Shown here one piece after another: positions 2,557 through 24,962 of a DNA stretch of 33,924 bases. The stretch spans positions 1 through 33,924 of the forward strand of contig SLSW01000353.1 in NCBI GenBank assembly GCA_007130245.1, in the 5' to 3' direction. The stretch comes from Micromonosporaceae bacterium (GTDB lineage Bacteria > Actinomycetota > Actinomycetes > Mycobacteriales > Micromonosporaceae). Under the pieces are notes generated by a model. That model did not search any database and was not told the DNA's origin. It saw only the letters and a program-made list of their open reading frames with translations. The position numbers and the translations under genes were made by a program. Every line of letters starts with the position of its first letter. Within the stretch, counting starts at the first letter, position 1.

Positions 2557-2589
2557 ATCCAGCGGATGTCCAGTGACAGCGCCTAGGTT
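2557..2589 (+). promoter_or_regulatory. Predicted heptad-repeat promoter: ATCCAGC-N4-GTCCAGT-N9-TAGGTT
   Basis: Heptads at 2557-2563 and 2568-2574 (11 bp period), then 9 nt, then TAGGTT at 2584-2589, upstream of the FAD oxidoreductase ATG at 2646. Confidence 0.6.
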
Positions 2590-2645
2590 CAAGCGGTAAC
2601 CCGACCGGCCGCCGGGTTCCTCCCACGTCGTTGAAAGCGAGCAAC

Positions 2646-4076
2646 ATGGCCGACGCCACTGAACTCAAGAGTTTGGCCGATTCCCTGACCGGGTCGCTGG
2701 TGCTGCCGGACGACGACGAGTTCGCGTCGCTGCGCAAGACCTTCCTCAGCCACGTGGCGGAGGTGCTGCCGCAGGCGGTGGCACGGTGCGAAACGCCGCA
2801 GGATGTGGCGCGCGCGGTGAGGTTCGCCCGCGCCCACCAGATGCCGTTCGCCGTGCGCAGCGGCGGGCACAGCTTCGCCGACTTCTGCTGCACCGACGGG
2901 CTGCTGGTCGACCTGGGCCGCATGGACTCGGTTCACCTCGACGGGGAGCTGGTCACGGTCGGTCCCGGTGTGCGACTGGGCCCGCTGGCCCGGCAGCTGG
3001 TCGACCAGGGCCGGATCCTGCCGTGCGGGTGGAACCCGCTGGTCGGCATCGGTGGGCTGGTGCTCGGCGGCGGGTACGGCGCGCTGAGCCGCTATTACGG
3101 CCTGGGCAGCGATCACCTGGTGGCGGCGCAGGTCGTGCTCGCCGACGGCAGTGTGGTGTGGACCGACGAGGACCGCGAGCCGGACCTGTTCTGGGCACTG
3201 CGCGGCGCCGGTTGGGGGAGCTTCGGCGTGGTCACGGCGCTGCGGCTGCGCACCTTCGCAGCGCCACGGGTGACCACCTTCGTGCACCGCTGGTCGTGGC
3301 CACGCGTGGCCGAGGTCCTCGACGCCTGGCAGCGGTGGGCTCCGACCGCCCCGGCCGAGCTGAACGCGGAGCTGGTGCTGCAGTCGCTCGGCCCGCAGGA
3401 AGATCCGCGCGTCACCCTGTTCGGGGTGGTGCTCGGCAACGCGGCGGACGCGCGGCCGCTGGTGGAGGAGTTCATCTATCGGATCGACGCCCACGACGAC
3501 CTGGAGGAACTCACCGAGCTGTCTCCGCGCGCCGGCGCCACCCGCCACACGTACGCAGGGCTGCCGGTGATGGACCGGCAGCCTCCTGGGCCCCCGACCG
3601 GGATGCGGCAGTGGATGCGAGCGGTCAAGTCCGAGTTCTTCGACCGCGCGATGCCGGCGGAGGCCATCGAGGCGCTGGTCGACACGTTCGTCGCCGACCG
3701 GCCCCGCGGTCAGTACCGCGAGCTGGAGCTGATCCCGTGGGGCGGCACGTTCCGGCACGTGCCGGCGGACGCGACCGCGTTCGTGCATCGAGACCCGTTG
3801 TTCCAGATCGGACATCACGCGATGGTCATGGCCAGCGCGGGTGATCCGGAACGTGTCTCGGCGCGGCAGTGGGTGGACCGGTCCTGGCAGGCGGTGCACC
3901 CCTGGGCCTCCGGCATGGTCTACCCGAACTATCCCGACGCCGATCTGCCCGACTGGGCCAGCGCCTACTACGGTGACAACCTGCCGCGGTTGGTGCGCGT
4001 CAAGGCCCGCTACGACCCGGACAACGTGTTCCGGTTCGCCCAGTCCATCCCGCTGCCCGAGGATGCCGGAGGCTAG
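2646..4076 (+). CDS. FAD-binding oxidoreductase, BBE-like (FAD_binding_4 + BBE domains)
   Basis: 'PFAVRSGGHSFADF' (8alpha-His FAD motif), 'VGIGGLVLGGGYG', C-terminal 'NYPDADLPDWASAYYGDNLPRLVRVKARYDPDNVFRFAQSIP' BBE motif. ATG at 2646 preferred over TTG at 2631. Confidence 0.9.
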   Translation: MADATELKSLADSLTGSLVLPDDDEFASLRKTFLSHVAEVLPQAVARCETPQDVARAVRFARAHQMPFAVRSGGHSFADFCCTDGLLVDLGRMDSVHLDGELVTVGPGVRLGPLARQLVDQGRILPCGWNPLVGIGGLVLGGGYGALSRYYGLGSDHLVAAQVVLADGSVVWTDEDREPDLFWALRGAGWGSFGVVTALRLRTFAAPRVTTFVHRWSWPRVAEVLDAWQRWAPTAPAELNAELVLQSLGPQEDPRVTLFGVVLGNAADARPLVEEFIYRIDAHDDLEELTELSPRAGATRHTYAGLPVMDRQPPGPPTGMRQWMRAVKSEFFDRAMPAEAIEALVDTFVADRPRGQYRELELIPWGGTFRHVPADATAFVHRDPLFQIGHHAMVMASAGDPERVSARQWVDRSWQAVHPWASGMVYPNYPDADLPDWASAYYGDNLPRLVRVKARYDPDNVFRFAQSIPLPEDAGG

Positions 4077-4153
4077 GAACGACCCCGGTCGGCCGTGGCT
4101 GGCAGGTTGCGCACCGGACCACCCGGCGCCACTGCGCTACAGACGTGTGTAAT

Positions 4154-4188
4154 GCCCGGTGGCCGGCACGGTGGCCAGCCCACCGGGC
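4154..4188. terminator. Hairpin between convergent FAD oxidoreductase and precursor P1
   Basis: GCCCGGTGG (4154-4162) / CCACCGGGC (4180-4188), perfect 9-bp stem between gene ends at 4076 and 4201. Confidence 0.55.
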
Positions 4189-4200
4189 GGACCTCAGCGG

Positions 4201-4338
4201 TTACCCGACAAGGTCGGATGCGACGACGTAGGTGTCGAAGTTACATGAGACGGCCCCGCAGGTCAGCGTCTCACACCCACCTCCGGTCAACTGATGTTCT
4301 TCGCTCAGCAGCTCCAGCGCTTCCAGCTCAAGCTCCAT
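4201..4338 (-). CDS. Lanthipeptide precursor P1: MELELEALELLSEEHQLTGGGCETLTCGAVSCNFDTYVVASDLVG
   Basis: Manually translated; leader shared with P2-P4; LTGG then Cys-rich core; SD AAGGAG upstream. Alternative ATG at 4347. Confidence 0.85.
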   Translation of the reverse strand: MELELEALELLSEEHQLTGGGCETLTCGAVSCNFDTYVVASDLVG

Positions 4339-4498
4339 CGTGTTCATCTCCTTCCGGCGCTACGGCGCCTCGTTGTCGGTGACTGGTCCGGCACGGTGAA
4401 ACCGGTGACGCACCGCCTCACCATGCCGTACCATCGCTAATGGTGGATGTCTGCGACCAAGGGCATGGGACGTTGATGCCGCCGGAAAGCAGCCGACA

Positions 4499-4533
4499 CC
4501 CGGGCGGACCGGCCCGAACCCGGCCCGCCCGGG
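4499..4533. terminator. GC-rich hairpin between P2 and P1
   Basis: CCCGGGCGG (4499-4507) / CCGCCCGGG (4525-4533) with an additional 4-bp inner stem. Confidence 0.45.
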
Positions 4534-4541
4534 GCGTCACA

Positions 4542-4685
4542 TCACAGCTGCGTGTGAGCGTCGCTGACGAACCCGCAGGACAGGGCGTCGGCGCAGGAGA
4601 GCAGGCCACATGAGACCATGTCACATCCACCGGTGAGAGCGGACTCCTCCTGGAGAAGCTCCAGTGCGTCGAGTTCGAACTCCAC
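4542..4685 (-). CDS. Lanthipeptide precursor P2: (V)MEFELDALELLQEESALTGGCDMVSCGLLSCADALSCGFVSDAHTQL
   Basis: GTG start preceded by AAAGGAGGTGA; leader homologous to P1/P3/P4; core has four Cys, three of them preceded by Ser. Confidence 0.85.
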   Translation of the reverse strand: MEFELDALELLQEESALTGGCDMVSCGLLSCADALSCGFVSDAHTQL

Positions 4686-4757
4686 GGCGGTCACCTCCTT
4701 TCCGCATCCACGGGACCTGCCACGGCGGTAAACCGCGACGATGCCGCCGCCGATCTT

Positions 4758-4773
4758 TGCCGGCGCGCCGGCA
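4758..4773. repeat. Perfect 16-bp palindrome TGCCGGCGCGCCGGCA between P3 and P2
   Basis: Read directly; lies in the ~100-nt gap between P3 stop and P2 start. Confidence 0.7.
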
Positions 4774-4786
4774 CCGCTTGGGTGGA

Positions 4787-4921
4787 TTACCGCCTCGTAA
4801 ACAGGTCTTCACTGGTGATGTGGCACGGGTCCGAGTCCAGGTAGCAGGTCTCCACCGTGCACCCTCCGGTCAGCGGCTGCTCCTCGTGCAGCAGCTCGAG
4901 CGCGTCCAGCTCCATCTCCAT
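4787..4921 (-). CDS. Lanthipeptide precursor P3: MEMELDALELLHEEQPLTGGCTVETCYLDSDPCHITSEDLFTRR
   Basis: ATG preceded by AGAGGAGGTGA; shared leader and LTGGC junction. Confidence 0.87.
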   Translation of the reverse strand: MEMELDALELLHEEQPLTGGCTVETCYLDSDPCHITSEDLFTRR

Positions 4922-4972
4922 GATCGATTCACCTCCTCTCCGTATGTTCCTCGTTCCGGTGCAGCTCCACCG

Positions 4973-6808
4973 CTAGGCGTGCGCCCGCAGATAAGGCGGA
5001 CGCTGCCGCCCGGCACGGTGTCGTCTGCCGTCCGGCTCTGGGCGAGCAGGGTCGTCAACGTCCCCTGCTACATCCCCGCAGTGGCTGAGAAAGTCGGTGA
5101 TCTCGGTGGCGAGCGGGTCGGTGCCAGGTCCGACCGGTTGATGCCCACGGCCGGGCACTTCCCGGTAGGTGACGGTGGCACTCGAGCGCTCGCGCAACGC
5201 TGCTATCAGTGCCCGCGAGTGTGACACCGGGATAGTGAGGTCATTCTCGCCGTGGATGAGCAGGATGCGCCCGGTGACGCTCCCCGCCAGCGACAACAGG
5301 TCACGTGCGCCCACACAGCCGGGTGGTTCACTGGTCGCGTCGAGGCGTTCGATCAGTGCCCGGACACCCGGCGACGCCTCCGGGTAGAGACGCCGGGCGG
5401 AAAGGAACGGCGCCACCGCGACACACGCCGACCACAGTTCCGGCGCGTAGGCCATGGCCAGCAGTCCGAGGTATGCGCCGTAGCTCACGCCGAACAGGCC
5501 CGGCGCACGGCTGCCGGCCGGTCGCACCGAGTGGACATGACGTGCGACCGCGAGCACGTCCGCCAGATCAGGATGGCCCCAGGCGCCCTTGATCGCGTAC
5601 TCGTGGTCGTGACCGTAGCCGGTGCTGCCGCGCTGGTTGACGGCGATCACGCAGGCGCCGTCCGCGGCCAGCTGCTGCAGACGGTGATCGAAAGCCAGGC
5701 TCCAGTGCTCCGACGGTCCACCGTGCAGGGCGACGATGACCCGCGAGGCGGTCGCCCAGTCCGGCCCATACACCACCGCCTCAAGTGGTCCCTCGGCGCC
5801 CGGCAGCATGGTGGTGACCCCCGGTGTCCACCCGCCCGGGTCGGGCTCCGCCGGCTGCGGCCGGTCCTCTCCCGGCGACTGCCACCACCACGTGGTGGGC
5901 GCGGTGGGAGTGGAGTGCGCCAGCCAGGCCCCGTGGCAGGTGAAGGCGGCCACCGAAGCGGTCACGCCGGGGGGAAGCGGCAGCGGCCGCGACCGACCGC
6001 TCGACAGATGGTGGCGCAGCACCGAGGTGGCCGCACCGTGGTGCACCCGCAGCAGCACCTCGTCGCCGTCCGGAGTGAGGGCGATCGGGAGAACGGAACC
6101 GTTGACGTGCTCCGGGCCGGTGAATTCCCGGACGGCACCCGGGTCGCCCACGCGCGCGCGGCCCAGCCGATGCCCGTGGCGGGTATCCAGACCGAACAGC
6201 ACCGCACCGGCGCTGGCGAGCAACGGCACGATGCGTCCCCCGCCCGTGGGCTCTGCCAGAGTGGACAGTGTTCGTCGGCTCAGGTCGAGCTCCAGCACTC
6301 GCTGCTGACCATCCCGCTGCCCGCTCATCAACAGCCGGTGGCCGACGACCACGGCGTTGCCGATGCGGTCCGGTGTGTCCGCCACCATCTCGACGCGCGA
6401 CAGATCGTCACTGATCAGGTAGAACCCGGTGCCGGCCTGGGCGCCACCCTCGCCGTTGGCGGCACCGATACCAAGGGCGGCGCCGTAGCCGGCGGGTACA
6501 GCCAGTAACCGCAGGCCGGGGCCGGTCAGCGGCGTGTCCGCTCCGTCCGGGAAGACTGCCAGGTGCTGCCTGGCAGGCTGTCCTGACCGCCACCGCGAGC
6601 ACAGCAACCGCCCGTCGCTCAACGGCAGCATCATGGCCGAATACGGGTCGCCGTCGAGCCGCCAGCGGCTGTGCCGCTGCGGGCCCGCGGCGCTCAGCTC
6701 CCACTGCTCCACATGGCCACGGCCGTGGTCGTCGACCGTGACACATCCGGCGCGCAGACCGTCCAGGGACAGGCGGAGGCTGATCCGCGAGATGACCGGT
6801 GCGGTCAT
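4973..6808 (-). CDS. S9-family (prolyl oligopeptidase/acylaminoacyl-peptidase-type) serine peptidase, putative leader-processing enzyme
   Basis: C-terminal alpha/beta-hydrolase with 'LHGGPSEHW', 'GLFGVSYGAYLG' (Ser), 'IHGENDLTIP' (Asp), 'VPGRGHQ' (His); N-terminal propeller-like region. 6 nt downstream of the synthetase stop. Confidence 0.88.
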   Translation of the reverse strand: MTAPVISRISLRLSLDGLRAGCVTVDDHGRGHVEQWELSAAGPQRHSRWRLDGDPYSAMMLPLSDGRLLCSRWRSGQPARQHLAVFPDGADTPLTGPGLRLLAVPAGYGAALGIGAANGEGGAQAGTGFYLISDDLSRVEMVADTPDRIGNAVVVGHRLLMSGQRDGQQRVLELDLSRRTLSTLAEPTGGGRIVPLLASAGAVLFGLDTRHGHRLGRARVGDPGAVREFTGPEHVNGSVLPIALTPDGDEVLLRVHHGAATSVLRHHLSSGRSRPLPLPPGVTASVAAFTCHGAWLAHSTPTAPTTWWWQSPGEDRPQPAEPDPGGWTPGVTTMLPGAEGPLEAVVYGPDWATASRVIVALHGGPSEHWSLAFDHRLQQLAADGACVIAVNQRGSTGYGHDHEYAIKGAWGHPDLADVLAVARHVHSVRPAGSRAPGLFGVSYGAYLGLLAMAYAPELWSACVAVAPFLSARRLYPEASPGVRALIERLDATSEPPGCVGARDLLSLAGSVTGRILLIHGENDLTIPVSHSRALIAALRERSSATVTYREVPGRGHQPVGPGTDPLATEITDFLSHCGDVAGDVDDPARPEPDGRRHRAGRQRPPYLRAHA

Positions 6809-6814
6809 GTCGCG

Positions 6815-9598
6815 TCATGCCCCCGGCCGCGGGTCGCCGAGGTGCCCGGTGCTGCCGTCGGCATCACCGAGCCAGGCGGTGTCCGCCATCCACCAGCGCG
6901 GACCGCCGTACCGCAACCGCAGCAGGAACCCGACCACGCCGGCCAGGCCCGTGTTGTAGGACAGGTTGGCGGCGGCGTTCAACTCGTCAGGAACGACCAT
7001 GCGGCCGTCCCGAACCGCGTGCCGCGCGTGTAGGCAACCGGCCAGTTCCTCTGCCCAGGCGCGGTAGTCACCTGCCGCGGCGTCGGCCATGTCCAGCAGA
7101 AACTCACCGTTGCCGGCCAGCCCGTGGCACGCTGCGGCGCCGGACGTCCACCGTCCGCGATGCACCATGACCGCTGCCTCGTGTGCCAGATCAAGGTAGG
7201 CCGGTTCCCCAGTGGCGCGCCACAGCCGCACCAGGAAGGTGCCCACCCCGGAGGCGCCGCTACACCAGTGGTAGCGCAGGTCATCCTCTGCCTGCGCCCC
7301 GGACACGCTGTTGGGCCAGTACGCCCCACCGTGCTCCCGGATCGCCGCGGCCACCAGGGTGTCACCGGCCCGGCAGGCCGCCTTGACCGCGTCGTCGTGC
7401 CCCACCGCGGTGCCCGCGGCGAGCAGGAACGATCCCACCCCGGCGACGCCGTGCGCGAAGCCGTAGTGGTTGACCCCGGCCAGTTTCGAGTCGAACCACT
7501 CCGGCACCGGCCAGTGCAGGCGGCCGTCCGCGGTGGTCTTGGCCGCCTCGAGCACCCCGTCCACGCAGTCCTCGACCCGCTGGCGCCATTCGGCGCCCCC
7601 GGTGACGTGCCACAGGTGCAGACTGGTGAACCCGGCGCCGGCGGCGCCGTGACACACATCCGGGTTGGGCCACCGCACCGGCAGTGCCCGCGCCAACATC
7701 AGCGCCCGCTGGGCGAGCGCGTCGTCCTGCAGGTGGCCCGCGGCGTCGTACAGTGCCCAGGCGGTGCCGGTACGGCCGAAGTAAAGCCCGGGCAGCAGCT
7801 TCGGCGCGCTGGTCAACCGTTGGTCGATCCAGCGCGCCACCCGGGTAACCGCGTCGCGCAGCGACACCGGGGCATCGCCACCGGCAGCACCTTCGAGCGC
7901 GGCGGCGCGGGTGAGCACCGCCAGCACGCCGGCCGCCCCGTACTGCACATTGCAGGCGTCGCTGGCCTGGCCGTTGTCGCCGGTCGGGAACAGCCGGTTC
8001 CCGGTGAGGGCCAGGTTGTCCACCAGGTAGGCCAGGCCGTCGTGGAGCATCCGCTCCTGGACCGTGGACTCCAGGCGAGCCGTGGACCTGTCCGGATCCG
8101 GTGCCGAACCCGGTGACACCGAACCGGATGGCCCGGATCCGGTCGCCCGGTCGGACAACCATTGCCGCAGGTCGGCGGTGGACCACCGCTCCTGCGGGTC
8201 CGGGCGGGTCAGGCCCGACACCGCGGGCGCCATAGCCGCCGCCGTGGTATTGCGTGTGCCGACGTAGCGCAGCAGCAGCTCGATGCGCTCACACGCGGAC
8301 CGGGCCGGCTCCGTGTCCGGCACGAAAGCCGGTGCGACCCCGGTGGCGAGATAGCACAGGACGGCTCCGAGCGAGAACCAGTCCGATGACGGCGGCGGTG
8401 CCGGCGCGATAGCGCGTTGCGCGACCACCTCCGGCGCGCCGAAGCCCGGGGTCTGCGCCGGCAGGACCCACTCGTCCTGCCGGGCGGCCATCTCCGCATC
8501 GATCAACCGGACCTGCTGGTCGTCGGTGATCATAATGTTGTTGGCGGTGAAGTCGCGGTAGACCAGTCCCCGCGTGTGCACCTCGTCGAGCAGGTCAGCG
8601 AGCTTGCCTGCCATCGACAACACCTCGTCGACCGGCAGGCCCTCCTCGCCCTCCTCGGTCAACCGCTGCAGCCAGCGCTCCCGCACCCACACGAGCAGCG
8701 ACCGGCCGGGCACCTCCTCCAGGACGGTGAACAGGTTGTCGTCCTTTTCGAAGGTCGTCAGCGGTTGCGCGGCGATACCCTCCAGCTCCTGCAACAGGCG
8801 GAACTCGCGCCGCAGCCCTTCCCGCGCGTCTCCTTGCCACACCAGTCCGCTGATGTGCGGTCGCGCGCGTTTGATGATCACGTTCTGTCCGGTGCTGGTG
8901 TCGAGCGCCCGGTAGACGCCGCCGCGCGCCGAGCTGGTGATGCTGCCGCGGACCTCGAAGCGGTCGGCCAGCAGCACCGACTTCGGCTCCCGCGGTCGGG
9001 CCGCGGCACGCCCGGGCTGGCCGTCGAACGGCAGCTCCGCCCACGACGGTGGGCAGAACCACGGCTGGCGCACGTCCTCCACCAGCGTCCCGTCCGGCGC
9101 CTCCAACCGGACCTCGAACGAGCCGTCATTGGTCAGCACGCGAGTGCCGGCGAACGCGCCGTACCGGTAGTGCACGAGGCTTCCGGGACGGTACGGCCGG
9201 TCCGACATGATCGTCGGGCCTGGCAGTCCTGCGGTAGCTTCGTCGAGCAGCCGGGCTAGCTCACGAAGGTGGTCGTCGTCGCGGGGGTAGGCGGCGATCA
9301 CCTTGCCCGCCTGTGGACGGTCCGACTGCTTGCTGGTGATCTGGCTGACCCGACCCAGGGTGCGCGCGAACTTGAAGGCGCACTCCTGCTCCACCAGCAC
9401 CTGCGCCGCACGCTGCAGCACCAGCGGGGCCGAGACCATCGTCGCCGACACGTGCAGCTTCCACCCCTGCAACCGGGGCGGATTGTCGGGCGGTGCGACG
9501 TGACACCAGAACTCGTCGTCATGCACCTGCCACGGCCGGCCGGCGAGGATCAGCTCCACCAGGCCACGCAACGGGAAGGTGTCCACGGGGGTGTGCAT
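6815..9598 (-). CDS. Lanthionine synthetase with lyase-kinase-cyclase organisation, class IV LanL-like (Zn-ligand motifs intact)
   Basis: N-terminal 'LQGWKLHVSATMVSAPLVLQRAAQVL...CAFKFARTLGRV', '...IMSDRPYRPGSLVHYRYGAF'; kinase 'GGVYRALDTSTGQNVIIKRA', 'GLVYRDFTANNIMI', 'RLIDAEMA'; cyclase 'VCHGAAGAG', 'YGFAHGVAGVG', 'HWCSGASGVG', 'ACHGLAGNG'. Confidence 0.9.
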   Translation of the reverse strand: MHTPVDTFPLRGLVELILAGRPWQVHDDEFWCHVAPPDNPPRLQGWKLHVSATMVSAPLVLQRAAQVLVEQECAFKFARTLGRVSQITSKQSDRPQAGKVIAAYPRDDDHLRELARLLDEATAGLPGPTIMSDRPYRPGSLVHYRYGAFAGTRVLTNDGSFEVRLEAPDGTLVEDVRQPWFCPPSWAELPFDGQPGRAAARPREPKSVLLADRFEVRGSITSSARGGVYRALDTSTGQNVIIKRARPHISGLVWQGDAREGLRREFRLLQELEGIAAQPLTTFEKDDNLFTVLEEVPGRSLLVWVRERWLQRLTEEGEEGLPVDEVLSMAGKLADLLDEVHTRGLVYRDFTANNIMITDDQQVRLIDAEMAARQDEWVLPAQTPGFGAPEVVAQRAIAPAPPPSSDWFSLGAVLCYLATGVAPAFVPDTEPARSACERIELLLRYVGTRNTTAAAMAPAVSGLTRPDPQERWSTADLRQWLSDRATGSGPSGSVSPGSAPDPDRSTARLESTVQERMLHDGLAYLVDNLALTGNRLFPTGDNGQASDACNVQYGAAGVLAVLTRAAALEGAAGGDAPVSLRDAVTRVARWIDQRLTSAPKLLPGLYFGRTGTAWALYDAAGHLQDDALAQRALMLARALPVRWPNPDVCHGAAGAGFTSLHLWHVTGGAEWRQRVEDCVDGVLEAAKTTADGRLHWPVPEWFDSKLAGVNHYGFAHGVAGVGSFLLAAGTAVGHDDAVKAACRAGDTLVAAAIREHGGAYWPNSVSGAQAEDDLRYHWCSGASGVGTFLVRLWRATGEPAYLDLAHEAAVMVHRGRWTSGAAACHGLAGNGEFLLDMADAAAGDYRAWAEELAGCLHARHAVRDGRMVVPDELNAAANLSYNTGLAGVVGFLLRLRYGGPRWWMADTAWLGDADGSTGHLGDPRPGA

Positions 9599-9604
9599 CG
9601 CCCG

Positions 9605-9648
9605 AACCTATGGCGCGCCGGTGGACAGTGACTGTACGTCCACTGGAC
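9605..9648 (-). promoter_or_regulatory. Predicted heptad-repeat promoter of the synthetase: GTCCAGT-N4-GTACAGT-N4-GTCCACC-N9-TAGGTT
   Basis: Minus-strand heptads at 9648-9642, 9637-9631 and 9626-9620 (exact 11-bp period), 9 nt, then TAGGTT (9610-9605), 6 nt before the ATG (9598). Confidence 0.65.
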
Positions 9649-9716
9649 GCCCCGCGTCGCGTCGCCGGTACGGCACGGCACCGATCCGCCGTTGCCCGGT
9701 GCGTCTCAAACAGAGC

Positions 9717-9747
9717 GCCGGCGGGCCGGTCAACCCGGCCCGCCGGC
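9717..9747. terminator. 13-bp perfect GC hairpin between P4 and the synthetase promoter
   Basis: GCCGGCGGGCCGG (9717-9729) / CCGGCCCGCCGGC (9735-9747), 5-nt loop. Confidence 0.7.
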
Positions 9748-9763
9748 ACCTGTCACGGCGGCC

Positions 9764-9889
9764 CTAGTTCTGAACCGCCGTCCAGTACATACACTGGGTG
9801 TGGTCCTGACACGTAAAGTTCACGCAACGGTCAGCACGCAGACCCTGCTCCTCCGGGAGCAGCTCCAACGCCTCCAGCTCGAGTTCCAT
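9764..9889 (-). CDS. Lanthipeptide precursor P4 (divergent core): MELELEALELLPEEQGLRADRCVNFTCQDHTQCMYWTAVQN
   Basis: ATG preceded by AGAAGGAGGTGA; leader nearly identical to P1; core C-x3-TC-x5-C without the LTGG junction. Confidence 0.85.
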   Translation of the reverse strand: MELELEALELLPEEQGLRADRCVNFTCQDHTQCMYWTAVQN

Positions 9890-10150
9890 CACTGTTCACC
9901 TCCTTCTGATTCTCGGTTTCCGTGGGCAGTGTCAGCGGCGGGCAGGCGGCACAACCGCCCACGCGCCCTGATTCACTGCTCCGCCGGTCTGTGGCCGTCG
10001 ACAGTCGGCGTCATCGGCTTCGGACGAGACGCTCGCTCCGCGGCACCGTGCGGTCCGGATCGTTCACGTAACCTGGTTCGGCCTCCACCCTCGGTGGTGG
10101 CGCCGCGCGCCGCGACCCGCGGCGGGCGAGTATGCCGTGAACATCCCACG

Positions 10151-10204
10151 ACCGTAGGGGATTCGCATGGACGCCGACTGGACGATGACTGGACGCCGCT
10201 GGAC
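10151..10204 (-). promoter_or_regulatory. Predicted heptad-repeat promoter upstream of P4: GTCCAGC/GTCCAGT/GTCCAGT/GTCCATG-N9-TACGGT
   Basis: Minus-strand heptads at 10204-10198, 10194-10188, 10183-10177 and 10172-10166 (periods 10, 11, 11), 9 nt, then TACGGT (10156-10151). A degenerate fifth copy lies at 10209-10215. Confidence 0.6.
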
Positions 10205-21489: not shown

Positions 21490-21635
21490 CCCGACCGGCG
21501 CCGCCGGGCCATCGCTGAACACCCGGCGGCGCCTGGTCACCGACTCCGGACGATAGTAGCCTCGTAGGCTCCGCTTTCGTTACGGTGTGGTGCTGCTTCC
21601 GCAGCGATTCTGCTGGCAGGGGACCTACTAAGGAC

Positions 21636-24600
21636 ATGGCTGAACTGGTACGGTTCTCGATCCTTGGCGCTCCGGTCATCACCGTCGGCGACAGGGCCAT
21701 CGCATTGGGAGCGCCTCGAGACCTGACAGTCCTGGCGATGCTGCTGCTGCGCCCTGGCGAGACGGTTCCAAACACGGACCTCATCGACGCTGTGTGGGTG
21801 AGACCGCCCAAGCGGGCGCGCACCCAGATCCAGGGCTGCATATTCCGTCTCCGGCGGCTTCTCGCCGAGGCGGGCGGAGCCCCCGATGCCATTGAGACGT
21901 ACCCGAACGCTTACCGCGCCGCCCTCAGCGTGGGCCAACTGGACCTGCTGGAATTTCGCCAGTTACTCGCGCGGGCTCGCACTGCCAACCACGAGGGGAA
22001 GCACGCCGGCGCCCGCGCCAACTTTCGCGCTGCCCTCGCGCTCTGGCGAGCCCCGGCCTGCATCGGCATCGAGAGTGAGCTGGTGCAGCGCTACGCCCAT
22101 GCCGTGGACGAGGAGCGGCTCCAGGCTCAACAGGAATGCCTCGATGTCGAACGTGAGCTGGGTCTCGGACCCGAACTCGTCCCCGAGCTGACCAGACTCG
22201 TTCACGAACACCCATATCAGGAGGGGTTCCACGTCGCGCTGATGCACGCGCTTCATCGAGCTGGTCGGCCGAGTGACGCGTTGGAGGTGTACCGCCGGGT
22301 ACAAAGGCTGCTCCGGGAGGAACTGGCCACCGAGCCCGGTGACGCGCTTCAGCAGCTTCATCAGCGCATCCTCGCCGGCGACTCCACCCTTGCCGCGTCG
22401 CGATCCGACGCCGAACACCCGGAGGCGGGCCATTCCGTCCCGCAGGAGCTGCCCGCCGACGTCGCCGACTTCACCGGCCGCGCCGACGAGCTGCGGACTC
22501 TCGACCAGCAGCTAAGCCGGGCGCGGCGGGGCTCAGCGATCGTGCTCTGCGTCATCGCAGGCACCGCAGGGGTTGGCAAGACCGCCCTGGCGGTGAACTG
22601 GGCGCACCGGGTGGCCGACCGTACTCCTGACGGGCAGCTGTACCTGAACCTCCGCGGAGCAGCGCCGCAGCAGCCCTTGCGCATCATCGAAGCCCTGACC
22701 GCGATGCTGCGCTCCCTCGGCGTCCCGCCGGCACAGATCCCTACCGACGCCGACCAAGCGGCCGCGCTCTACCGCGGCCGCTTGGCCGGCCGGCGGGTGC
22801 TCGTGGTACTCGATGACGCCGCATCCGTAGAACAGGTACGGCCGCTGCTGCCCGGCACGCCCGGATGCCTGGTTATCGTCACCAGCCGGGACCGCCTCAG
22901 CGGCCTCGTCAGCCGCAACGGGGCCACCCGGGTCACGCTCGACGTCCTCCCGGCGAGTGATGCCGTCGGTCTTCTTACGCTGCTGCTCGGAGCTGATCGA
23001 ATCGCGGACGAGCGCGAAGCGACGGAGGAACTCGCCAGGCGGTGCGCTTACCTACCCCTGGCACTGCGGGTCGCTGCCTCGAACCTCATCAACCATCCGC
23101 ATCAGTCAATAGCCGGGTATCTTCGCCGGCTGGCCCACGAGGCCGCCATGGAAGAGCTTCGCAACGACGACGACGCCGAGGCCGCAATCCAAACCGCCTT
23201 CGATCTCTCCTACAGCCGCCTCCCCGGCGACGCGCAGCGCATGTTCGGGTTACTGGGGCTCGTACCCGGTCCTGACTTCACGCCCGAGGCGGCGGCCGCA
23301 CTGGCCCAGACCGACCTGCGCGACGCGCGGAGCCTCCTCGATCGACTCGCCCGCTCGCATCTGGTGACCGAACGCGCCCGCGACCGGTACACGTTCCACG
23401 ACCTGCTGCAGGCCTACGCTCGGACGAAGGGCGAAGCCGCCCTCGCGCCGGGGGAACGAGCCGCGGCAGTCGACCGACTGATCACCTGGTATCTGGCAAA
23501 CGCGCACGCCGCCGCGACCATGCTGAGTCCCGAGACACTTCAGCTTCCGCTCGACAGCCCTGTCTCACAGCCGGCATCTCCGACCGGCGACGCGGCACAA
23601 GCACGAACCTGGCTCGATGCGGAGGCACCGAATCTCATCGCCGCCATCCACCTGGCCGCAACCGACGGCACGCCGGAGGCCGCGTGGCGACTCGCCTTCT
23701 GTCTGCGCAGGTATTTCTGGAGCGGGGGGTACTCGGTCGAGTGGCAGGCCGCCGCCGAAACAGCGCTAGCCGCAGCGGTCGGCAGCCGCGACACGCTCGG
23801 TCAAGCGGCCGCCCGACTCAATCTCGGCGACGTCTACTTCAGGCTGTCACGTGCCGACGATTCGCTTGAGCAGTATCTGCTAGCCGCCTCGCTCGCCCGC
23901 GAGTGCGGTTGGACCGGTGGCGAGGGTGCCTGCCTCGGTTCGATCGGCATCCGATACATCCTCACCGGCGAGCTGGAACGAGCGGAGGCAGTTCTCACCC
24001 GCCGGCTCGACCTGACCGTCACGGACAAGCGACCCGGCGTCCTGGCGGCAACGCTCGGAAACCTGGCGAACGTTTACCGCGAACAGGGGCGGTTGCTGGA
24101 CGCTCTCGTCAACCACGAGCAAGCCCGGGCGCTGTACGCCGATCTGGGCGCACAGCGCGAGTTAGCAGGTGCACTGAGCAATATCGCTGACCTGGAACAT
24201 CTGCTCGGCAGAAGCGACGACGCGCTGGCACACCTGCAGCAGGGCATAACATTGGCCCGTGAGACGGGACATGGCAACGCCGAGTTCCACGCTTTCATGA
24301 TCCTCACTGGCGTGCACGCGGACAACGGCCGGACCGCGGCGGCCCTGGAGGCCGGGGACACGATGATGGCGCTGGCGAGAAGCATCCATCACCCGATGTA
24401 TACAATCATGGCCGCGAACATGATGGGCACCGCGTACGCCATAGTCGGCCGAGCCGGTGACGCGATTGACTCCCACACGGCTGCACTCGAACTCAGTCGT
24501 CATGCCGCTCATGTGGGTTACCAGGCACGAGCCCTCGCCGGCCTGGCCCAGGCCTACCTGATGCGAGGCGACACCGACGGTGCGGGCGCAGCCGGGCAGG

Positions 24601-24962
24601 AAGCGGTGACGGGTGCGCGCAGGTCAGGCTTTCGGCTGGTGGAGGGGCATGCGCTGACGACACTTGCGGCGGTTGCGCTCGACCAGGGACACCAGGTGGC
24701 CGCACAACGCTATGCAGAACGCGCGCTCACGGGTTACCGCGCCATGCAGTATCGACTCGGGGAGGCCCGCGTACGAGCGGTACTCGCCCCGGTCATGGCT
24801 GCGATCGGTGACACGGCCGCGGCGCGGCGACACTGGCGCACCGCCCTCGACATCTACTCGGACACGGGCGCCGAGCCACCGGATGAAGTGGCTCAGTGGT
24901 TGGCCGAGTCCCAGTCGCGGCCGACGCCGACGGACACGTCCAGCGGCACCGACAGCTCGTAG
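21636..24962 (+). CDS. AfsR/SARP-family transcriptional regulator (OmpR-like DBD + BTAD + NB-ARC + TPR)
   Basis: 'VRFSILGAPVITVGDRAIALGAPRDLTVLAMLLLRPGETV...', 'ELVPELTRLVHEHPYQEGFHVALMHALHRAGRPSDALEVYRRVQRLLREELATEPG', P-loop 'VIAGTAGVGKTALAVNWAHRV', TPR C-terminus. Confidence 0.93.
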   Translation: MAELVRFSILGAPVITVGDRAIALGAPRDLTVLAMLLLRPGETVPNTDLIDAVWVRPPKRARTQIQGCIFRLRRLLAEAGGAPDAIETYPNAYRAALSVGQLDLLEFRQLLARARTANHEGKHAGARANFRAALALWRAPACIGIESELVQRYAHAVDEERLQAQQECLDVERELGLGPELVPELTRLVHEHPYQEGFHVALMHALHRAGRPSDALEVYRRVQRLLREELATEPGDALQQLHQRILAGDSTLAASRSDAEHPEAGHSVPQELPADVADFTGRADELRTLDQQLSRARRGSAIVLCVIAGTAGVGKTALAVNWAHRVADRTPDGQLYLNLRGAAPQQPLRIIEALTAMLRSLGVPPAQIPTDADQAAALYRGRLAGRRVLVVLDDAASVEQVRPLLPGTPGCLVIVTSRDRLSGLVSRNGATRVTLDVLPASDAVGLLTLLLGADRIADEREATEELARRCAYLPLALRVAASNLINHPHQSIAGYLRRLAHEAAMEELRNDDDAEAAIQTAFDLSYSRLPGDAQRMFGLLGLVPGPDFTPEAAAALAQTDLRDARSLLDRLARSHLVTERARDRYTFHDLLQAYARTKGEAALAPGERAAAVDRLITWYLANAHAAATMLSPETLQLPLDSPVSQPASPTGDAAQARTWLDAEAPNLIAAIHLAATDGTPEAAWRLAFCLRRYFWSGGYSVEWQAAAETALAAAVGSRDTLGQAAARLNLGDVYFRLSRADDSLEQYLLAASLARECGWTGGEGACLGSIGIRYILTGELERAEAVLTRRLDLTVTDKRPGVLAATLGNLANVYREQGRLLDALVNHEQARALYADLGAQRELAGALSNIADLEHLLGRSDDALAHLQQGITLARETGHGNAEFHAFMILTGVHADNGRTAAALEAGDTMMALARSIHHPMYTIMAANMMGTAYAIVGRAGDAIDSHTAALELSRHAAHVGYQARALAGLAQAYLMRGDTDGAGAAGQEAVTGARRSGFRLVEGHALTTLAAVALDQGHQVAAQRYAERALTGYRAMQYRLGEARVRAVLAPVMAAIGDTAAARRHWRTALDIYSDTGAEPPDEVAQWLAESQSRPTPTDTSSGTDSS

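Follow-up and report, generated by a model that had tools for sequence, protein, structure and literature searches.

One might ask of this locus which peptides it makes, and whether all of the genes lying next to one another take part in making them. The window, by which we mean the whole stretch of 33,924 nucleotides analyzed, holds on its minus strand, in this order, the precursor gene P4, a lanthipeptide synthetase gene (LanL), an S9 peptidase gene, and the precursor genes P1, P2, and P3; a flavoenzyme gene on the plus strand is convergent with P3. As a class IV lanthipeptide cluster, the locus is of a kind already described, and everything said here of its products is predicted. Unusual are the number of precursors, the regular spacing of residues in their cores, and a flavoenzyme whose lanthipeptide-bound clade spans class II and class IV. 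We consider it probable that four paralogous precursors are given rings at +4 (from each Cys to a residue four positions downstream) by LanL, lose their leader to the S9 peptidase, and are tailored by a flavoenzyme that came from class II clusters.

The synthetase and its genomic setting

A sequence-only reading of this DNA had listed four precursors, a class IV-like synthetase, an S9 peptidase, and a FAD enzyme of the BBE type, and all of these are present as judged by ORFs and profile matches. The LanL gene (6815..9598, minus strand) encodes, in a single chain, a RamC_N lyase (PF25816), a kinase (PF00069), and a LanC-like cyclase (PF05147). The protein scores 1015.6 bits against the class IV model NF038150 (cut-off 650) and 431 bits against the class III model (cut-off 575). 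Its lyase and kinase residues are conserved, and the zinc ligands C779, C824, and H825 are in place, as they are in 22, 22, and 23 of 24 class IV sequences, respectively; the corresponding positions of the two class III enzymes of this genome read A/N, Y/A, and Q/Q, that is, the ligands are absent. A class III assignment was therefore rejected, given the score below the cut-off and the zinc ligands, and the profile score together with the Cys-Cys-His ligands identifies the enzyme as a true LanL.

The same 4.15 Mb genome encodes further synthetases. Two class III LanKC-like enzymes (L003 and L004) score 414 and 386 bits against the class IV model, and a second class IV LanL, 53–55% identical, lies at L030:7493-10473 (G000:C115) with one precursor just downstream (MERDLELDPRALEALPGGENPSAWGRACTYPTTCSCSSCTLIEVE); no S9 peptidase was seen there on its short contig. 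One LanL scan of the genome contigs returned only a kinase fragment.

The S9 peptidase gene (4973..6808, minus strand) lies on the same strand as LanL after a gap of 6 bp, and P1 starts 51 bp past it. In the same-genus genome G002, none of the other genes of the window were found within ~20–25 kb of the LanL locus (L031), so the cassette occupies a different genomic place there. A search of a plasmid collection gave no match. Elsewhere in the window (21585-24962) is a gene for a SARP-type regulator (BTAD, NB-ARC, TPR), homologues of which occur near several LanL and flavoenzyme loci.

Precursors, predicted rings, and leader removal

The four precursor genes, all on the minus strand, are P1 (4787..4921; MEMELDALELLHEEQPLTGGCTVETCYLDSDPCHITSEDLFTRR), P2 (4542..4685; MEFELDALELLQEESALTGGCDMVSCGLLSCADALSCGFVSDAHTQL; GTG start), P3 (4201..4338; MELELEALELLSEEHQLTGGGCETLTCGAVSCNFDTYVVASDLVG), and P4 (9764..9889; MELELEALELLPEEQGLRADRCVNFTCQDHTQCMYWTAVQN; ATG start, with an alternative GTG at 9892). 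Each is preceded by a strong AGGAGGTGA-like ribosome-binding site, and the positions of these sites led us to move three start codons, after which P1–P4 all begin ME[LMF]EL[ED]ALELL. That the leader is common to all four, as had been proposed, is borne out by the strict motif E[x]E[x][ED]ALELLxEE: a six-frame search of the window (33.9 kb) gives four occurrences, and 100 Markov-shuffled copies give none.

The statement that this precursor family was not recognizable went too far. Against the leader model NF038157 (ALQxL family class IV lanthipeptide), P4 gives a weak match of 10.7 bits (cut-off 19) and P1–P3 give none, and the relatives at L035 and L036, which are neighbors of other LanLs, pass with 23.4 and 26.0 bits. 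Because of these scores on both sides of the cut-off, we read P1–P4 as Gln-to-Glu relatives of the family, their leader being ALQxL in a diverged form, AL[E]xL; they lie below the family cut-off and are relatives, not members, of a kind of precursor already described.

Leaders of this kind are encoded next to LanLs elsewhere as well, among them the second one of this genome and that of the same-genus L031. We compared 25 LanL loci (the window, L030-L047, and L098-L103), the genomes of the relatives being drawn from order and class samples. Approximately 19 of the 25 have such a precursor ORF; homologous loci consistently lacking one, the finding that the sequence-only reading had set against itself, were not what we saw. 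Two precursors are found in L032, L039, and L099, and three in L040 and L043, so that the four of the window are the maximum in this sample. The three at L040 (13333-13982) are closely similar to one another, adjoin a LanL and an S9 peptidase, and have cores that we take to be venezuelin-like (..CIGLLT..C.GITCA).

LanL would recognize the common ME[x]E[L]xALELL leader, and would phosphorylate and eliminate Ser and Thr in the core. The evidence favors the earlier suggestion that a single synthetase may give rise to several lanthipeptides, and a LanL with four substrates of its own would lend itself readily to a specificity assay.

Where the rings would form is suggested by the spacing of residues in the cores. 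In P1–P4 and the precursor of L031, 13 of the 14 Cys are followed by Ser or Thr precisely four residues on (+4; the mean after shuffling is 2.2, and 0 of 5000 shuffles match), the sole exception being one Cys of P2 with Ser at +5. The other precursors favor a downstream Ser or Thr at +3 (45 of 64 Cys; 0 of 5000 shuffles). Most characterized lanthionines have the Ser or Thr N-terminal to the Cys, and one might expect the same here, with rings closed from the residue just before each Cys or from further upstream. The only other enrichment in these cores is in fact a Ser or Thr directly before the Cys (7 of 14), though a ring between adjacent Ser and Cys would be sterically unusual, and at offsets −2 to −7 Ser and Thr are not enriched in the cores of the window. 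Moreover, the first Cys of P4, which consists of three Cys-x3-Thr units, has no Ser or Thr upstream of it in the core, whereas the last Cys of every core has a partner at +4. The offset counts do not support the usual ring direction, and we consider it unlikely.

The simplest reading of the unpartnered first Cys of P4 and the partnered last ones is one small, non-overlapping ring per Cys, with the Cys N-terminal. LanL would then close thioether rings from each Cys to the Ser or Thr four (once five) residues downstream, which predicts three rings in P1, P3, and P4 and four in P2. Non-overlapping rings are already known in class IV products, to go by the title of the SflA paper that PMC10885120 cites. 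A rule of one ring per Cys at +4 (or +3) would be an unusually sharp prediction of ring topology.

Leader removal is probably the task of the S9 peptidase, as had been suggested. S9 peptidases have already been implicated in class III/IV lanthipeptide maturation; the window protein has a C-terminal alpha/beta-hydrolase catalytic domain (PF00326, E 9.4e-27) with the triad S442, D523, and H556, and its gene lies within the cluster. An S9 gene adjoins LanL in 11 of the 25 loci, with the catalytic Ser motif intact in all 11. Its site of cleavage is likely to differ from that of its relatives. The S9-linked loci L036, L038, L039, and L098 have ALQxL-type precursors in which L[YF]P leads straight into the first core Cys, and cleavage after this Pro is therefore likely in them. 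P1–P3 and the L031 precursor carry LTGG in its place, so that the window enzyme probably cuts differently; P1–P4 have no Pro at a consistent leader position, and the closest PDB relatives of the S9 protein are acylaminoacyl peptidases, neither of which points to FlaP-type cleavage after Pro here. The enzyme would cut within the leader, perhaps close to the LTGG segment, and an unclustered M1 aminopeptidase may do the final trimming.

The whole leader could also be removed by such an M1 enzyme of the AplP type, leaving the S9 protein an accessory or self-protection role. Two full-length M1 peptidases are encoded elsewhere in the genome, AplP/SflL provides a precedent for leader removal in class III/IV (PMC10885120), and no S9 peptidase was seen at 14 of the 25 LanL loci. 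We nevertheless find this doubtful, given an S9 gene that is separated from LanL by 6 bp and immediately precedes P1, the recurrence of S9 beside LanL in 11 loci, and an L[YF]P before the first Cys in four S9-linked loci, as post-Pro cleavage would lead one to expect.

The flavoenzyme and its clade

The flavoenzyme gene (2646..4076, plus strand) encodes FAD_binding_4 (PF01565) and BBE (PF08031) domains, and the predicted structure (pLDDT 87) has the VAO fold and matches BBE-like oxidases and EncM. The FAD-linking His75 is conserved. At the second FAD-linking (6-S-Cys) position, the enzymes of the window, L031, and L056 have Asn where the other clade members have Cys, so that they lack the residue for a second covalent link, a feature that is typical of BBE-like oxidases though not universal among them. 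Glu361 is present in 13 of 13 clade members of the first survey and in 3% of other homologues.

By position alone, the link between this gene and the operon is weak: it stands on the opposite strand, convergent with P3, and a flavoenzyme gene occurs near LanL in 2 of the 25 LanL loci (the window and L031), both of this genus. The sequence-only reading had called the enzyme co-regulated and the peptides possibly oxidatively modified. The first part was rejected as stated, since the gene is convergent with the operon and a hairpin separates it from P3 (4154..4188, minus strand; −32.3 kcal/mol, z −2.7); only in L031, where the enzyme lies beside the LanL-S9-precursor set with different flanks and orientation, is it co-directional. 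The second part stands on firmer ground than before, the enzyme being a likely tailoring enzyme because of the clade-wide linkage described below. A gene for a SigE-type ECF sigma factor (2009-2467) is divergent from the flavoenzyme gene and could regulate it.

In the genome G002, a second copy of the flavoenzyme lies directly after a class II LanM (L056), which led to a survey of homologues. The final tree comprises 54 of them and leaves aside two long-branched, unlinked rows (L094 and L095). Fifteen have a lanthipeptide synthetase in their neighborhood (13 class II LanM, 2 class IV LanL), the other 39 have none, and these 15 form one clade (support 97/94; found in 99% of bootstrap trees); the linkage label changes once on the tree, versus 13.2 times when shuffled. 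The LanM-linked members L106 and L107 come from outside the order of the window. The enzymes of the window and L031 branch from within the LanM-linked clade, where L056 is their closest relative, so that transfer from class II to class IV within the genus is the simplest history, and the flavoenzyme looks to have been recruited from class II clusters.

Clusters of the LanM-(ABC transporter)-flavoenzyme type are found at L056:9269-13746, L057, L059-L064, L066, L068, L088, L106, and L107, and in most of them the three genes are adjacent on one strand. Most of their precursors have CC or CCC at the C-terminus, and many have NPAGPLF in the leader; of six compared with NCBIfam, five gave no match and that of L059 was a borderline mersacidin-type. 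Comparison by eye with P1–P4 revealed no common core motif, and with their CC or CCC ends these precursors look so unlike P1–P4 that one sees no obvious target residue common to both. Neither LanM nor LanL adjoins the sister flavoenzyme L058; it lies (L058:3907-10596) near a large radical SAM and class II tRNA-synthetase-like protein and a carbamoyltransferase.

Could the flavoenzyme simply be an unrelated neighbor, and the locus make plain, unoxidized class IV lanthipeptides? The convergent orientation, the intervening hairpin, and the absence of the gene from 23 of the 25 LanL loci are what one would expect in that case, and Walker et al. 2020 (PMC7268733), who noted FAD-dependent oxidoreductases in some class IV clusters, cautioned that it is uncertain whether these belong there. 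Against this stand the 15 of 15 clade members found beside a synthetase versus 0 of 39 other homologues, the retention of the gene beside LanL-S9-precursor in L031 despite changed orientation and flanks, and the fact that it is the only homologue in its genome at E <= 1e-60. We judge an unrelated neighbor rather improbable. In the tailoring role that we favor, the enzyme would carry out a two-electron oxidation on the modified peptide.

Expression of the cluster and comparison with known systems

A GC-rich hairpin lies 3′ of each of the four precursors. In addition to the one after P3, these are a strong hairpin between P4 and LanL (9709..9754; −46.4 kcal/mol, z −5.7), one after P2 (4494..4539; −40.3 kcal/mol, z −3.1), and a weaker one after P1 (4732..4783; z −1.7), all on the minus strand. 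Both precursors of L032 are also followed by a hairpin (z −2.8 and −5.2); none was found in the S9-P1 gap, at the LanL-S9 junction, or in the tested stretches of L030 and L031. The P4-LanL hairpin is probably an attenuator or 3′ stabilizer and may let P4 be made in excess over the enzyme. A search for sigma-70-type promoters found none, a result that is uninformative for an actinobacterial-type genome.

It is very improbable that LanL acts on P1–P3 only, P4 being a duplicate in decay or a peptide that is expressed separately and serves regulation or immunity. P4 does lack the LTGG segment and is set apart from LanL by its very strong hairpin, but it shares the leader of the others and has a complete ribosome-binding site and the three Cys-x3-Thr units.

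If our reading of the flavoenzyme is true, it installs oxidative tailoring on class IV products, of which no secondary modification had been reported at the time of the 2020 survey (PMC7268733), and it is a candidate for a kind of finishing step as yet unreported. The linkage points to BBE-type enzymes acting on ribosomal peptides. The words "RiPP" and "ribosomally" are both absent from a 2024 review of BBE-like natural-product oxidases (PMC11375781), and our literature search for a lanthipeptide together with a berberine-type enzyme found no relevant paper, an absence that is no proof since subscription papers mostly fell outside its coverage. More broadly, we tentatively propose a BBE-like clade dedicated to lanthipeptides of two mechanistically different classes, native to LanM clusters and recruited to class IV, where it may oxidize peptides with Cys-x3-Ser/Thr rings (Cys N-terminal). 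The clade-wide linkage makes the cluster membership of neighboring FAD enzymes directly testable with one small gene set.

How, then, does the locus compare with known systems? LanL resembles the characterized class IV enzymes (SflA and streptocollin systems) in domain order, in catalytic and zinc residues, and in its adjacent small precursor genes. However, a predicted class IV precursor is alone in its cluster in 83% of cases (Walker et al. 2020, PMC7268733), and the window has four. With the ALQxL precursors (NF038157), P1–P4 share a short acidic-hydrophobic leader with AL-x-x-L, but they have Glu for the signature Gln, a score below the cut-off, and a Cys-x3-Ser/Thr core where the relatives mostly have Cys-x2-Ser/Thr. 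The S9 protein is like the FlaP/LanPB leader proteases in its family, clustered gene, and intact Ser-Asp-His motif; it differs in being closest to acylaminoacyl peptidases, and in precursors without a conserved Pro at a plausible cut site. Finally, the flavoenzyme shares with the BBE-like oxidases (EncM, PpBBE1, and plant BBE) its two domains, the FAD-binding His, and the whole fold (TM 0.83–0.86), and departs from them in the Asn that replaces the second FAD-linking Cys, in the clade-specific Glu361, and in the genomic partner of its clade, a lanthipeptide synthetase.
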